From Deltaproteobacteria bacterium (GTDB lineage Bacteria; Desulfobacterota; Desulfomonilia; UBA1062), in the NCBI GenBank assembly GCA_018434685.1, contig JAHDOV010000014.1, positions 62,001-126,000 of the forward strand: a stretch of DNA of 64,000 bases, in the 5' to 3' direction. Each line of letters opens with the position of its first letter. The first letter of the stretch is position 1. Made by a program: the position numbers and the translations under genes. The notes under the pieces were generated by a model, which did no database searches, was not told where the DNA came from, and worked only from the letters and a program-made list of their open reading frames with translations. Positions 3,381-8,818 of this stretch are shown piece by piece.

Positions 3381-4988
3381 ATGATCAAGGTGACATGCCT
3401 GGGAGGGGCCGGGAGCGTGACCGGCTCGAACTATCTTATCGAAAATATGCTCGGGAAAAAGGTTTTGGTGGATTGCGGCATGTTCCAGGGCGGCAAGCAG
3501 ATGGAACTGCGCAACAGCAGGCCCTGGGACTTCAATCCCGCACAGATCAGCACCCTGTTTCTCACGCACGCCCATATCGACCATTCCGGCAGGATTCCCA
3601 AGCTGGTAAAAGACGGTTTCACCGGCAGCATCATCACGTCTCCGCCCACGGCAGAGCTCTGCGGGATCATGCTCCTGGACTCGGCCCATATCCAGGAGAT
3701 GGATGCCCAGTGGCAGACCCGCAAGAACCGGCGGAGGGCAAACAGGGACGTTCAGCCGCTCTACACCACCGATGATGCTCTCAGGAGCCTGCAGCTCCTG
3801 GCACCGGTGGAGCGGGACGAGATCATCACCGTTGAGGAGGGTATCAGAGCGCGCCTGAGAAATGCCGGCCATATCCTGGGATCTTCCATCCTCGAGCTGT
3901 GGGTGCAGGATGGAAGCGCAGAGATCAAGCTCGTCTTCTCCGGGGATATCGGCAAGGCAAACCAGCTCATCCTCAAGGACCCGCACGAGGTCTTCAACGC
4001 AGACTACCTCTTCGTGGAATCCACCTACGGCAACCGCCTGCACAAGTCGTACGAGGCCAGCAAGGACGAACTGCTCGAGGCCATCAACTATGCGGTGTCG
4101 AACAAGGAAAAGATCATCATCCCGGCCTTTGCCGTGGAGCGCACCCAGGAGATCATCTACCTGTTGAGCGAGTTTCAGCGCAACGGGCTGCTGCCCGACA
4201 TCCCCATCTACCTGGACAGTCCGCTCGCCATCAAGGCAACCGAGATCTTCAAGCGCAACCGAAAGTACTATGACGAGGAGGCTACCGAGATCGTGAACCA
4301 GGGGTTCGATCCCTTCGAGATGCCGAACCTTCACTACACGCCCGAGACGAAAGGGTCCATAGCCATCAACGAGACACCGGGCTCTGCCATCGTCATCGCA
4401 GGAAACGGCATGTGCACGGCAGGGAGGATCAAGCACCACCTCAAGCACAACCTCTGGCGGGAGGGGGCGAGCATCGTGATCGTGGGATTCCAGGCCCAGG
4501 GTACCACGGGAAGGCAGATCGTCGACGGCAAGAAGACCGTGAAGATATTCAGGGAGGACGTCTCGGTGCGGGCACGCGTGTTCACCATCGGCGGGTTTTC
4601 CTCCCATGCCGATCAGAACGATCTCCTCCACTGGGTGGGCAACTTTGCGGAATCGAAACCGCGGGTGTTCGTGGTCCACGGCGAGGCGTCAGCGAGCCAG
4701 GAGCTGTCCCGGCTCATCGGCGAGCGGTTCGGCCTCAACACCTATGTGCCGAGCTGGCGGGAGAGCCTGATCCTCAAACCCAGGGAGTTTCCCATCGAGG
4801 TCGCGGCTGCCGGGGAAGAAGTCGTGAACCTCGGCGAGGATATGCTCAGGGTCTATGCCGAGGTGGAAAAAGAACTCGGCAGGGTCAAGGCGCGCATTCA
4901 ACGCGCCGAGAGCCGGCAGAGGATCGTCGATGAGGACATCGACCGGCTCAGGTATATTCAGGAGGAGCTCCAGCAGATCCTGATGTAG
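3381..4988 (+). CDS. Beta-CASP metallo-beta-lactamase-fold RNA hydrolase (CPSF73-like)
   Basis: This 535-residue protein carries the metallo-beta-lactamase zinc signature HAHIDH at residues 63-68, further metal ligands in GHILGSS and SGDIG, and a beta-CASP insertion with the conserved VESTYGNR. The C-terminal zinc-dependent RNA-processing (RMBL) motif GGFSSHADQNDLL is present. Relatives are exo/endoribonucleases or RNA-maturation enzymes. The last ~60 residues are charged and probably helical. GAGGAGGGAGAC precedes the ATG. It stands alone, convergent with paaK, with stop codons only 4 bp apart. Confidence 0.9.
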   Translation: MIKVTCLGGAGSVTGSNYLIENMLGKKVLVDCGMFQGGKQMELRNSRPWDFNPAQISTLFLTHAHIDHSGRIPKLVKDGFTGSIITSPPTAELCGIMLLDSAHIQEMDAQWQTRKNRRRANRDVQPLYTTDDALRSLQLLAPVERDEIITVEEGIRARLRNAGHILGSSILELWVQDGSAEIKLVFSGDIGKANQLILKDPHEVFNADYLFVESTYGNRLHKSYEASKDELLEAINYAVSNKEKIIIPAFAVERTQEIIYLLSEFQRNGLLPDIPIYLDSPLAIKATEIFKRNRKYYDEEATEIVNQGFDPFEMPNLHYTPETKGSIAINETPGSAIVIAGNGMCTAGRIKHHLKHNLWREGASIVIVGFQAQGTTGRQIVDGKKTVKIFREDVSVRARVFTIGGFSSHADQNDLLHWVGNFAESKPRVFVVHGEASASQELSRLIGERFGLNTYVPSWRESLILKPREFPIEVAAAGEEVVNLGEDMLRVYAEVEKELGRVKARIQRAESRQRIVDEDIDRLRYIQEELQQILM

Positions 4989-4992
4989 GAAT

Positions 4993-6282
4993 TCAGTTTC
5001 TGTGGTCGAATACCCGCTGGGATTTCCTGCCGGACCTGGGCAGGCTGCCGTAGTCCACGACCTCGATGATTCCCCTGACCAGGAGCGACTTCCTGAGATC
5101 CACCCCGATCTTCTTGCCGATTTCCAGGTCGCCCTCAGGGCCTGCACCGGCGGCGCGCTCCACCCTGATGGTCATATAGTCCTTGCCGTCGTCTCCCCGG
5201 TCCAGGTGGATCTGGTACTCGCTGCCGATGCCCTGTTCCTTCGAGAGGATCTCATCGATATGGCTCGGATAGACATTGACCGCACGGATGATGAACATGT
5301 CGTCGGAACGGCCGCTGATCCTGTCGTGTCGTGGCAGGGGCGAGCCGCACGGGCACTGTCCCGGGATGAGCCGTGTGAGATCCCGCGAGCGGTACCGGAT
5401 GAGCGGTGCGCCCTCTTTCTTCAGCGTGGTGTAGACCATCTCGCCCACTTCGCCTTCCCTGACCGGCTCCAGGGTTTCGGGGTCGAGGATCTCGAGGATG
5501 TAGTAGTCTGCCCAGTAGTGGATGCCGGTATGATGTTCGCAGTCCAGGCCGGTGCCGGGCCCGTACAGCTCGGTCAGGCCGGGTATGTCGAATATGTGCT
5601 CCGCCCTGAAGAGATCCTTGACCTTGTTGCGCAGGGCGTCGCTCGCGCGCTCCGCCCCCATGATCACCTTCTTCACGTTGATCTTCTCGGTGAGACCGTG
5701 TTTTTCTACCTCTTCCGCGAGCAGGAGCGCCATGGAGGCGGTGCAGCAGATCACGGTGGGCTGGAAGTCCTCGAGGAACTGCAGGTGCATCTCGGTATTG
5801 CCGGGGCCCAGCGGCAGTGCCATGGCACCGAAGCGCTCGCACCCGTTCTGAAATCCGACACCGGCAGTCCACACGCCGTAGCCCACGCAGATCTGGACCC
5901 GGTCCTGCCTCGTGAGTCCTGCTGTTTCGTAGCACCGGGCGAACATGTCGGCCCAGTCGTCCACGTCCTTGGAGGTATACACGAGCACCTTGCGCTTGCC
6001 GGTTGTCCCCGTGGACGCATGGATGCGGACGATGTCTTCGAAGGGCACGGACCGCAGGGGGTAGGGATAGCCGTTCTGGAGGTCCTGGGCCGTCACAAAG
6101 GGAAGCCTGCGCAGATCGTCTAAGGTCTTTATGTCGTCGGGCTTCACCCCTGCCGCATCGAGGCGCTCACGGTAGAAGTCCGAGCCGTTGTAGGCATGGT
6201 CCACAGACCATTTCAGGCCTGCGAGCTGGAGGGCCTTGAGTTCATCCTGTGTTCTAAACGCCGGCATGAAGGATCGTGCCAT
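4993..6282 (-). CDS. paaK: Phenylacetate-CoA ligase (arylacetate-CoA ligase)
   Basis: This AMP-forming ligase activates phenylacetate or related arylacetates to CoA thioesters. The 429 residues match the usual PaaK length. The P-loop is HASTGTTGKRK; other adenylate-forming motifs are LTELYGPG and RYRSRDLTR with SGRSDDMFIIRAVNVYPS. The start at 6282 follows TAGGAGG with 6 bp spacing; the longer frame to 6357 would overlap iorB and lacks this site. It is the third gene of an iorA-iorB-paaK operon, 10 bp after iorB. Next to an indolepyruvate oxidoreductase it would interconvert arylacetate and arylacetyl-CoA, the product of aryl-pyruvate oxidation. Confidence 0.93.
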   Translation of the reverse strand: MARSFMPAFRTQDELKALQLAGLKWSVDHAYNGSDFYRERLDAAGVKPDDIKTLDDLRRLPFVTAQDLQNGYPYPLRSVPFEDIVRIHASTGTTGKRKVLVYTSKDVDDWADMFARCYETAGLTRQDRVQICVGYGVWTAGVGFQNGCERFGAMALPLGPGNTEMHLQFLEDFQPTVICCTASMALLLAEEVEKHGLTEKINVKKVIMGAERASDALRNKVKDLFRAEHIFDIPGLTELYGPGTGLDCEHHTGIHYWADYYILEILDPETLEPVREGEVGEMVYTTLKKEGAPLIRYRSRDLTRLIPGQCPCGSPLPRHDRISGRSDDMFIIRAVNVYPSHIDEILSKEQGIGSEYQIHLDRGDDGKDYMTIRVERAAGAGPEGDLEIGKKIGVDLRKSLLVRGIIEVVDYGSLPRSGRKSQRVFDHRN

Positions 6283-6292
6283 ATACCACCTC

Positions 6293-6826
6293 CTAATGTG
6301 ATTTGGATTCTCGGGAGTCAAAACCTGCTTCAACGCCCTCGATATTCTTCGATACAAATTTCTCAGGGGAAATCTCCTGGATCACGGTGCGGATCTCCGG
6401 CAGGGTGAACCCGAGGATCGAGGCGGCAAGGCCGAGCACGATCATGTTGACGGAACCAGGCGAGCCCATCTCCAGGGCGCGCCCCGTCGCATCGACGGTA
6501 AAGTCAAAGGGCCCCTGCTGCGGGGCATTCACCACCGATACGCCGCCCGGTCTGAGCATGTGCAGGTGGTCCTGTGCCTCTGATTCCTCCAGGCCTATGA
6601 GCATGTCCGCCGAGCCGGCAGGGATGAGCGGGCTCATATACGAGCCGATCTTGAGGCTAGCCGTTACCGTGCCTCCCCGCATGGCCATGCCGTGGGTTTC
6701 CGAGGTGATCACCTTCATCCCCTTTCTGGAGGCGAGTTCCGCAAGTGCTTTTGCCAGGAGCAGGATACCCTGGCCTCCTCTTCCCACCATGAAGACCTGT
6801 CTGCCTGTTCGATCCGGTTCCATCAT
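6293..6826 (-). CDS. iorB: Indolepyruvate:ferredoxin oxidoreductase, beta (gamma-domain) subunit
   Basis: The 177-residue subunit belongs to the pyruvate/ketoisovalerate oxidoreductase gamma family, with GRGGQGILLLAKALAELA at the N-terminus, ETHGMAMRGGTV, and GSADMLIGLEESEA. It pairs with IorA to interconvert aryl-pyruvate plus CoA and arylacetyl-CoA plus CO2 with ferredoxin. The start at 6826 overlaps the iorA stop as ATGA, indicating translational coupling; the open frame upstream to 6892 lies inside iorA. Transcription is expected from the Trp-controlled promoter in front of iorA. Confidence 0.92.
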   Translation of the reverse strand: MMEPDRTGRQVFMVGRGGQGILLLAKALAELASRKGMKVITSETHGMAMRGGTVTASLKIGSYMSPLIPAGSADMLIGLEESEAQDHLHMLRPGGVSVVNAPQQGPFDFTVDATGRALEMGSPGSVNMIVLGLAASILGFTLPEIRTVIQEISPEKFVSKNIEGVEAGFDSRESKSH

Positions 6827-8628
6827 AGTCTTCTCTCTGCTTTGATTGCATTGTGTGGACAGATATGCACGCACACCCCGCACCCGATACACAGGGACGG
6901 ATCTATGTGTGCCCTCTCGTCGCCCATCTCAAGGGCAGGGCACTCGAACTGCTCTACACAGTAGCCGCACGCAGTGCATTCTTCGGTGATGTCCATGGCA
7001 TAGACTGCCTGGTCTTTCAAGGCCTGGCGGTCCCTGATACAGGGATGCCTGGCGATGACGGCTACCACGCCCTGGTCTTCGCTCAGGGAGTAGGCCTTTT
7101 TCGTGATCTCGGTAAAGCCCTTGACGTCATAGGGGTCGTGGACAAAGACGGTCTGAACGCCGCAGCCCCTGAGGACCTCTTCGAGCTGCAGGGTGCGGCC
7201 GGCATAGTCGTTGGTCACGCATCCGGTGGCAGGCGTTGGCTGGTGGCCGGTCATGGCCGTGGTTGCATTGTCGAGGATGACGAGCACGAACCTCGCGCCG
7301 GTGACCAGTGCATTGATGGTGGGGGGGATGCCTGCGTGGAAATAGGTGGAGTCACCGATGATCGCCGCGATGGGTGGCGGGTTCACCGTGTTCTTGAATG
7401 CATGGTAGAAACCCGCTGCCTGGCTGACGGCAGCGCCCATGCACAGGCACGTGTCCACGCCGCCCAGGTTGAGCCCGAGGGTGTAGCACCCGATGTCCGA
7501 GGTGTAGATGCCCTTGGGCAGGGCCTTTTTTATGGCATAGAAGGCGCCGCGATGCCCGCACCCGGCGCACAGGGAAGGGCGCCGCTGTTTCCTGGCGGCC
7601 CCGTCTTCGGGCTCTCGGGGGACACCGGTTACCTCATCGAGCACCCTCATGACGATCTCCGGGGTGAGCTCCCCGGTATTCGGGACCGTACCGTCGATCC
7701 TGCCCGATACCCTCTCCCGGTTGGGAAACTGCATCTCGATCACCGGTTCGGTCTCTTCCACCACCAGGACCTTTTCATGTGCCTGCGCAATCCTGAGCAG
7801 GAGCGAGTGATCCATGGGATAGGGCATATCGACCTTGTAGACGCAGACGTCCGGCCATCGGTCAAAGGCCTTGAGCACGTCCATGATGTAGGCATAGGCC
7901 ACACCGGATGATACGATGGCGAGACGCGCACCGGGTTGCCCGAAGACCCTCTTCGGCCGCGCCCATTCGTGGAGAGCTATCCGGGCAAGCTTTTCGTTGA
8001 GCTCCTTGTGGAGTACGAGTCTCGGCCCTGGTGTCGCTGCCCAGCGGTACGGATCCTTGCGGAAATCCGGCTGTCTGGACGCTGGGTTGATAGCGGGCAG
8101 ATCCAGGAGCTGCCGGGCATGGCACACGCGTGTCGTGGGTCTGAGGATCACCGGGGTATGGTACTGTTCGGAGAATTCAAAGGCCTCGATAGTCATCTTC
8201 ATGGCCTCTTCCGGGCTGCTCGGGTCGAGAACCGGGATTTTCGCATGCATGGCAAAGAACCGTGTGTCCTGTTCGGTCTGGGAAGAGTGGGGGCCCGGGT
8301 CATCCGCCACCACGAGGAGAAACCCTCCTGCCGTTCCCATGTATGCGGCGCTCATGACCGGGTCTGAGGCGACATTGAGCCCCACCTGCTTCATGATGGC
8401 AGCCGAGCGCAGCGATGCGATGGCGTTTGCATAGGCGACTTCCACAGCGGTCTTCTCGTTGATGGACCACTCGACGTGGCACGGCAGATCGTGTTTTTTC
8501 ACCAGCTTCATGGCTGCCTCGCATACCTCTGATGCAGGGGTGCCGGGATACGACGCGACCATGTTTGCGCCGCCTGCAAGGATGCCGTATGCTATGGCCT
8601 CATTACCCAGGAGAATCTTTTTGCCCAT
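6823..8628 (-). CDS. iorA: Indolepyruvate:ferredoxin oxidoreductase, alpha subunit
   Basis: The 601-residue thiamin-diphosphate subunit has the N-terminal pyrimidine-binding half (residues ~1-200, EWSINEKTAVEVA), the central domain, and the C-terminal TPP half with GDSTYFHAGIPPTINAL and LDNATTAMTGHQPTP. A bacterial-type ferredoxin tail follows, with clusters CTACGYC...CP and CIGCGVCVHICP (about residues 545-595). It interconverts indolepyruvate, phenylpyruvate or hydroxyphenylpyruvate with the arylacetyl-CoA using ferredoxin. GAGAGGACTCC precedes the ATG. It heads the iorA-iorB-paaK operon, and the 150 bp upstream hold a Trp leader peptide, antiterminator and terminator. Confidence 0.95.
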   Translation of the reverse strand: MGKKILLGNEAIAYGILAGGANMVASYPGTPASEVCEAAMKLVKKHDLPCHVEWSINEKTAVEVAYANAIASLRSAAIMKQVGLNVASDPVMSAAYMGTAGGFLLVVADDPGPHSSQTEQDTRFFAMHAKIPVLDPSSPEEAMKMTIEAFEFSEQYHTPVILRPTTRVCHARQLLDLPAINPASRQPDFRKDPYRWAATPGPRLVLHKELNEKLARIALHEWARPKRVFGQPGARLAIVSSGVAYAYIMDVLKAFDRWPDVCVYKVDMPYPMDHSLLLRIAQAHEKVLVVEETEPVIEMQFPNRERVSGRIDGTVPNTGELTPEIVMRVLDEVTGVPREPEDGAARKQRRPSLCAGCGHRGAFYAIKKALPKGIYTSDIGCYTLGLNLGGVDTCLCMGAAVSQAAGFYHAFKNTVNPPPIAAIIGDSTYFHAGIPPTINALVTGARFVLVILDNATTAMTGHQPTPATGCVTNDYAGRTLQLEEVLRGCGVQTVFVHDPYDVKGFTEITKKAYSLSEDQGVVAVIARHPCIRDRQALKDQAVYAMDITEECTACGYCVEQFECPALEMGDERAHIDPSLCIGCGVCVHICPHNAIKAERRL

Positions 8629-8679: not shown

Positions 8680-8707
8680 ATAAAAAAGGCAGCCTGCAGG
8701 CCGCCTT
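8680..8707 (-). terminator. Attenuator (intrinsic terminator) in the iorA leader
   Basis: Read on the minus strand, 8707-8686 forms a nine-pair stem AAGGCGGCC / GGCTGCCTT, including one G-U pair, around a TGCA loop. A run of six to seven T follows directly (8687-8681). It lies between the Trp leader peptide and iorA, about 50 bp before the iorA start, and so would stop transcription before the structural genes. Confidence 0.85.
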
Positions 8708-8730
8708 CTATGCACTTCGCAGAAGTCGAG
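8701..8730 (-). promoter_or_regulatory. Candidate antiterminator helix competing with the attenuator
   Basis: On the minus-strand RNA, UCGACUUCU (8729-8721) can pair with AGAAGGCGG (8709-8701): eight pairs, one of them U-G, plus one mismatch. This sequesters the 5' arm of the terminator, so the two structures exclude each other. The upstream strand begins only 5-14 nt after the leader peptide stop codon. A ribosome at the stop would therefore mask it and favour termination, while one stalled on the Trp codons would leave it free. A smaller local hairpin (8714-8726) is an alternative. Confidence 0.65.
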
Positions 8731-8734
8731 CCCG

Positions 8735-8773
8735 TCAGCTGTCTTTGGTCCACCACCACTCATGTCTGATCAT
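8735..8773 (-). CDS. Tryptophan-rich leader peptide (MIRHEWWWTKDS)
   Basis: The 12-codon frame contains three consecutive TGG codons (8758-8750) and ends in TGA at 8735. In-frame GTG (8782) and ATG (8791) codons would give 15- or 18-residue forms; none has a strong Shine-Dalgarno sequence. Trp-leader peptides of other bacteria also carry two or three tandem Trp codons. Its spacing to the antiterminator and terminator matches ribosome-mediated attenuation. The peptide itself probably has no other function. Confidence 0.8.
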   Translation of the reverse strand: MIRHEWWWTKDS

Positions 8774-8789
8774 CGTTTTCACGGGTAGC

Positions 8790-8818
8790 ATACAACGATA
8801 AATCGATAGATTTGTCAA
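8790..8818 (-). promoter_or_regulatory. Candidate sigma-70 promoter of the ior leader
   Basis: On the minus strand a consensus -35 TTGACA (8818-8813) is followed after 17 bp by TTGTAT (8795-8790), a poor -10 element. With this arrangement the transcript would start near 8783, about 10 nt before the 12-residue leader frame. The -35 is convincing; the -10 is not. Confidence 0.45.

Follow-up and report, generated by a model that had tools for sequence, protein, structure and literature searches.

Indolepyruvate oxidoreductases (IOR) tend to be named by similarity, an annotation that mostly leaves open whether the enzyme degrades or makes aromatic amino acids, and which one. In the window, the whole 64,000-nucleotide stretch of deltaproteobacterial DNA analysed here, genes for such an enzyme and for an arylacetate-CoA ligase lie behind a short leader that holds three tandem tryptophan (Trp) codons. 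The locus raises the question of whether these genes are controlled by Trp and, if so, what this control says about the pathway that they serve. The mechanism at issue is that of the classical trp attenuator.

The leader upstream of iorA

The operon lies on the minus strand and begins with iorA (6823–8628), which encodes an indolepyruvate ferredoxin oxidoreductase alpha subunit of 601 residues with matches to TIGR03336, POR_N, TPP_enzyme_C and Fer4. It continues with iorB (6293–6892; beta subunit, Pfam POR), whose called frame overlaps iorA and whose true start probably lies further in, and with a gene for a PaaK-like AMP-forming arylacetate-CoA ligase (4993–6357; AMP-binding, AMP-binding_C_2, TIGR02155), which overlaps the end of iorB. 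The substrates of both enzymes were assigned via family models that score below their curated cut-offs. IorA matches TIGR03336 over its full length at 635.5 bits (cut-off 650.9) and is called IOR-like with a presumed substrate, and the ligase, at 392.8 bits against TIGR02155 (cut-off 646.3), is called a PaaK-like arylacetate-CoA ligase. Convergent with this operon, a plus-strand gene (3381–4988) encodes a beta-CASP metallo-beta-lactamase RNase-like protein, with below-cut-off matches to the CRISPR-associated Cas14 (type VII) model and to aCPSF1. The leader itself sits between divergent genes, iorA (minus strand, from 8628) and a PilZ-domain gene (plus strand, from 9057). Thus, no upstream gene ends at its terminator, which is needed by no other transcript.

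Read along the minus strand, the leader region opens with a putative promoter (8818–8790) comprised of TTGACA (8818–8813), a 17-nt spacer and a weak −10 box, TTGTAT (8795–8790). An automatic promoter scan did not list it owing to the weak −10; by eye, TTGACA, ~17 nt and a TTNTAT-like box are common to most of the compared leaders from the genome's own family (f1). The leader peptide ORF (8782–8735) starts at GTG 8782 (MKTMIRHEWWWTKDS) or ATG 8773 (MIRHEWWWTKDS) and extends for 12–15 codons to the stop codon TGA (8737–8735). The three tandem TGG codons, assigned as the regulatory codons, occupy 8758–8750, and orthologous leaders have 2–5 clustered Trp codons. GTG 8782 aligns with the ATG of two relatives (L050 and L051), ~8 nt past the −10 box. 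Several f1 leaders, judged by eye, have a start codon ~7–9 nt past the −10 (8782–8795 in the window, and in relatives), and the leader mRNAs of the window and of several family relatives may be nearly leaderless.

Three segments follow the Trp codons. Segment 2, the 5′ arm of the antiterminator (GGGCTCGACTTCT, 8733–8721), lies directly 3′ of the stop codon and 16 nt past the last Trp codon. Segment 3 (GAAGGCGGCC, 8708–8699) is a shared arm that pairs either with segment 2, as antiterminator, or with segment 4, as terminator. Segment 4 (GGCTGCCTTT) together with the T run forms the 3′ half of an intrinsic terminator (8694–8682). The complete terminator, GAAGGCGGCC-TGCA-GGCTGCCTTT, has a stem of 10 pairs (8708–8685), a 4-nt loop and a T run at 8687–8682, and is strongly structured (−16.1 to −16.8 kcal/mol, z of −3.8). 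The antiterminator pairs 8733–8721 with 8708–8699 in competition with the terminator (duplex energy of −10.6 kcal/mol). As a single sequence it is unremarkable against chance (p 0.12), and the fold of the entire leader is no more stable than that of its shuffles (z of −0.79). The case for regulation therefore rests on conservation. The classical 1:2 hairpin has a p of 0.5 in the window and no support in the window's family, with only a few distant leaders being suggestive; the antiterminator is thus more probably blocked by the terminating ribosome, which would mask it.

The preliminary description of this DNA had reported three tandem TGG codons in a short frame, a terminator with a T run before iorA, a mutually exclusive antiterminator and the downstream order iorA-iorB-paaK. 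All four are present in the window, the antiterminator as a pairing that gains its weight from conservation across families.

Conservation among iorA orthologues

We collected IorA orthologues from three sources (119 relatives, 395 genomes within the phylum, and a named genome collection) and compared their upstream DNA. A loose scan for Trp leaders was dropped, since 9% of shuffles were positive, and was replaced by a strict scan, which required a short ORF encoding WW or WxW to be followed within 150 nt by a hairpin of ≤ −10 kcal/mol with a T run. The strict scan was positive for 30 of 137 iorA upstream regions, compared to 14 of 4110 shuffles (0.34%) and 1 of 137 regions on the reverse strand, a rate ~60 times that of the shuffles. 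One of the 30 (L140) was judged to be a chance match, with scattered Trp residues and a C-run as its terminator. Another four loci (L065, L121, L123 and L134) have the layout and fall narrowly outside the strict criteria.

The Trp leader precedes iorA in 12 of 12 clade-1 orthologues of family f1. It is also found in families f12, f21, f28, f38, f71 and f90, making at least seven families with f1, and the distant families show the same leader plan with other stem sequences. The nearest named loci that carry it (L009–L012) belong to Desulfobacterales or to unplaced proteobacterial MAGs, which points to Desulfobacterota as the probable phylum. Most iorA orthologues of the phylum are without the leader, including those of f2, a family of the same class, and of many other families, and it is absent from several paaK-linked orthologues (f29, f48 and f104). 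From sequence only, iorA of f29 lies directly 3′ of an apparent transporter gene. In an IorA tree (FastTree) the leader-bearing rows are clustered, yet 8–12 gains or losses are needed to explain their distribution.

An antiterminator between the leader end and the 5′ arm of the terminator is predicted in 29 of 29 leaders. Its arm starts 16–23 nt past the last Trp codon in most of these leaders and lies at most ~15 nt from the stop codon in most, with L120 as an exception. Family f1 pairs GGTCGACTT with AAGGCGGCC, and pair counts show the GGTCGACTT-type arm of segment 2 to be conserved in relatives; the distant families pair TCTGCCCAC with GTGGGCAG or GTGGGCGG on the same plan. The combined p for the antiterminator is 4e-14 over related sequences and 2e-5 over nine representatives. 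In the alignments, 95–99% of terminator cells and 88% of antiterminator cells are paired, with two-sided changes present, compared to 26–66% in a control with slid partners, except for one value of 85% for the f1 terminator. The shuffle control for the distant-family antiterminator is weak (28 of 500 for the percentage paired), a consequence of its many invariant pairs. The predicted alternative pairing is thus retained through sequence change across families. Its geometry fits a ribosome model, in which a ribosome stalled on the Trp codons would free the arm and one at the stop codon would cover it.

Relatives were also where the preliminary description had placed its own refutation, in a loss of the Trp codons or of the alternative pairing. 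Both were found to be conserved, and its reading of trp-type attenuation is now supported by Trp-rich leaders, terminators and antiterminators upstream of iorA throughout the leader-bearing families.

Leaders on the trp operon and on a second ior operon

A pattern search of the window's genome returned 20 matches and, on reading, Trp leaders stand out only before iorA and trpE. The trp operon carries a leader that begins MMCRRSKANEQNWWWQ (WWW), with a strong terminator, before trpE (G000:C47, 469001–469165; L109, 6002–6165), and a WWW leader plus terminator precedes trpE in 7 of 7 family relatives with a trpE locus. Since the trp operon bears the same leader type, the two operons appear to share one mode of regulation.

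Four genomes that carry the ior leader gave no match for trpE, trpD, trpC or trpA; two of them, G016 and G051, are 98% complete, and the other two, G003 and G152, are less so. Chorismate synthase is present in G016, G003 and G051. From their draft sequences, a loss of the trp genes is probable in these four genomes, and a dependence on arylacetate salvage is possible. The window's genome has a full trp operon, to which the ior operon would add a further source of Trp.

The same genome contains a second set of genes, iorA2-iorB2-paaK2, with an IorA identity of 38–40%. The region upstream of iorA2 (G000:C36; L107, 902–1042) has no Trp leader and instead holds a Phe/Tyr-rich leader that ends in PAYYFFIYFRGYHLCP at its stop codon, followed by a terminator and an antiterminator. 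This leader was an incidental discovery, and the evidence for it is of the same kind as that for the Trp leader. Phe/Tyr leaders of the same plan occur in 16 of 17 family members, with motifs such as YYFFIYF, YYYRFYF, YYFYFYY and FYFFIF; they are seen in 8 of 1700 shuffles and in none of 10 paralogues outside the family. The antiterminator arm of iorA2 overlaps the leader stop (GCCCATAGGCC with GGCCATGGGC) and shows a two-sided change in L267 and L268 (GTCC with GGAC). Judged by their leader codons, the two ior paralogues seem to respond to different amino acids, and this is the strongest hint to their substrates.

Mechanism, pathway direction and known systems

We propose that iorA-iorB-paaK is very probably controlled by trp-type attenuation, in which a ribosome mediates the control of transcription. 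RNA polymerase would start at ~8783 (minus strand), followed by a ribosome that translates the leader of 12–15 codons. When Trp-tRNA is charged, the ribosome would reach the stop codon (8737–8735) and cover 8733–8721, and the terminator (8708–8685) would form. When Trp-tRNA is scarce, the ribosome would stall on the three TGG codons and 8733–8721 would pair with 8708–8699, such that no terminator forms and iorA-iorB-paaK is transcribed. This predicted read-through upon uncharged Trp-tRNA follows from the leader anatomy, and is strengthened by the Trp leader of the trp operon, by the Phe/Tyr leader of the paralogue and by the persistence of the ior leader in genomes without detected trp genes.

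A short ORF with a TGG repeat could lie by chance beside an ordinary terminator and regulate nothing. This would be in keeping with the insignificant single-sequence fold and with the frequent positives of the loose scan among shuffles, but it is exceedingly improbable given the excess of the strict scan over its shuffles, the Trp cluster and alternative pairing that are kept across families despite diverged sequence, and the divergent flanking genes, between which no other transcript needs a terminator. Other Trp-sensing leaders, namely a TnaC-like Trp-induced arrest peptide or a T-box, likewise place a Trp-related element before a Trp-related gene, and the leader shares this placement. TnaC arrest relies on one key Trp with conserved spacing, whereas these leaders have several clustered Trp codons in otherwise unlike sequences, and a terminator that competes with an antiterminator. 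An Rfam search of the leader found no T-box and no other cis-regulatory family, and we regard either type of element as very improbable here.

Under trp-type attenuation, the ior operon would be a Trp-supply operon. The PaaK-like ligase would make indoleacetyl-CoA, IorAB would carboxylate it reductively to indolepyruvate, and an aminotransferase would convert this to Trp. The paralogue with the Phe/Tyr leader would provide the same route for phenylacetate and 4-hydroxyphenylacetate. Genes behind such an attenuator are expressed in response to a shortage of the amino acid, as suits its synthesis and not its breakdown, and we consider it likely that IorAB-PaaK runs in the biosynthetic direction. 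Trp-leader operons of several families often hold one or two paaK-like genes, and in family f12 the leader stands before iorAB with no paaK detected nearby. Some Trp-leader operons (L051, L059, L192–L194, L196–L198 and L201) include livHMGF and livK, a branched-chain-type ABC transporter that would suit as a candidate aryl-acid uptake system.

The same transporter, frequent in these operons, could import amino acids, as would be expected if the attenuator were genuine and the operon catabolic, with IorAB-PaaK oxidising Trp-derived arylpyruvates and the switch serving another purpose. IOR is indeed known for oxidative amino-acid fermentation in Pyrococcus, as cited in PMC13285125. However, a trp-type attenuator, being off when Trp is plentiful, would work the wrong way for Trp catabolism, the trp operon in the same genomes has the same kind of leader, and the leader persists where trp genes were not detected. 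The AMP-forming ligase also spends ATP in making a CoA ester, an argument put forward for Bacteroides in PMC13285125. A catabolic operon is therefore unlikely, and the biosynthetic direction is preferred. The Trp and Phe/Tyr leaders suggest that “degradation” enzymes here make aromatic amino acids. We lean, by a little, towards a wider proposal in which the family makes aromatic amino acids from arylacetates via two specialised IorAB-PaaK operons, a Trp operon and a Phe/Tyr operon, with attenuator codons that name the product of each, and in which the de novo Trp branch has been lost from some lineages that now depend on this route.

The leader peptide would thereby read out the substrate and direction of an IOR, through Trp codons in one case and Phe/Tyr codons in the other, both with an “on when short” logic, and a question left by annotation becomes readable from sequence and testable. 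It would also extend ribosome-mediated attenuation to an unusual pathway in bacteria that are probably anaerobic, and suggests that arylacetates such as indoleacetate are taken up and reused.

The leader is similar to the trp attenuator of E. coli and other proteobacteria (trpL; Rfam Trp_leader) in its ORF with tandem Trp codons, its intrinsic terminator, its competing antiterminator and their placement relative to a stalled or terminating ribosome. Unlike trpL, it controls iorA-iorB-paaK and not trpE and the genes beyond, the 1:2 hairpin is unsupported in the window's family, and the leader mRNA is possibly nearly leaderless. Rfam Trp_leader gave no match at the gathering threshold nor at E-values up to 5, and the leader is not filed in that family. 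Attenuators of the Rfam amino-acid type have been suggested to have a gamma-proteobacterial origin (PMC3766115). We found no description of a Trp attenuator on ior genes in the open-access literature that was searched, with the subscription literature, including comparative-genomics surveys of attenuation, outside its scope. Thus, the mechanism is of a known kind, while the ior target and the paired regulation of the paralogues appear to be undescribed.

To our knowledge, no amino-acid-specific attenuators have been described for the aryl-acid pathway of Methanococcus maripaludis. This archaeal pathway is similar to the proposed one in that aromatic amino acids are made from aryl acids, with IOR as the enzyme implicated (Porat et al. 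2004, as cited in PMC4162585). Closer to the window, a 2009 Geobacter genome paper (PMC2700814) gives in its Table 2 a conserved 5′ sequence of a “tryptophan (iorAB-paaK)” operon (Gmet_P1827 / GSU1739.1), classed among “possible promoters and riboswitches”; its main text is without mention of a leader peptide, Trp codons or an attenuation mechanism. This element, probably from the same broad bacterial group as the window genome, shares with the window leader its genes, a tryptophan-biosynthesis grouping made by the authors and the presence of a conserved sequence upstream, a likeness by description only. In Bacteroides, a biosynthetic role has been argued for an IOR that is encoded together with an AMP-forming arylacetate-CoA ligase, as in the window (PMC13285125, 2026). 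The relevant passages of that paper hold no regulatory evidence, whereas here the leader codons would indicate the amino acid of each paralogue.
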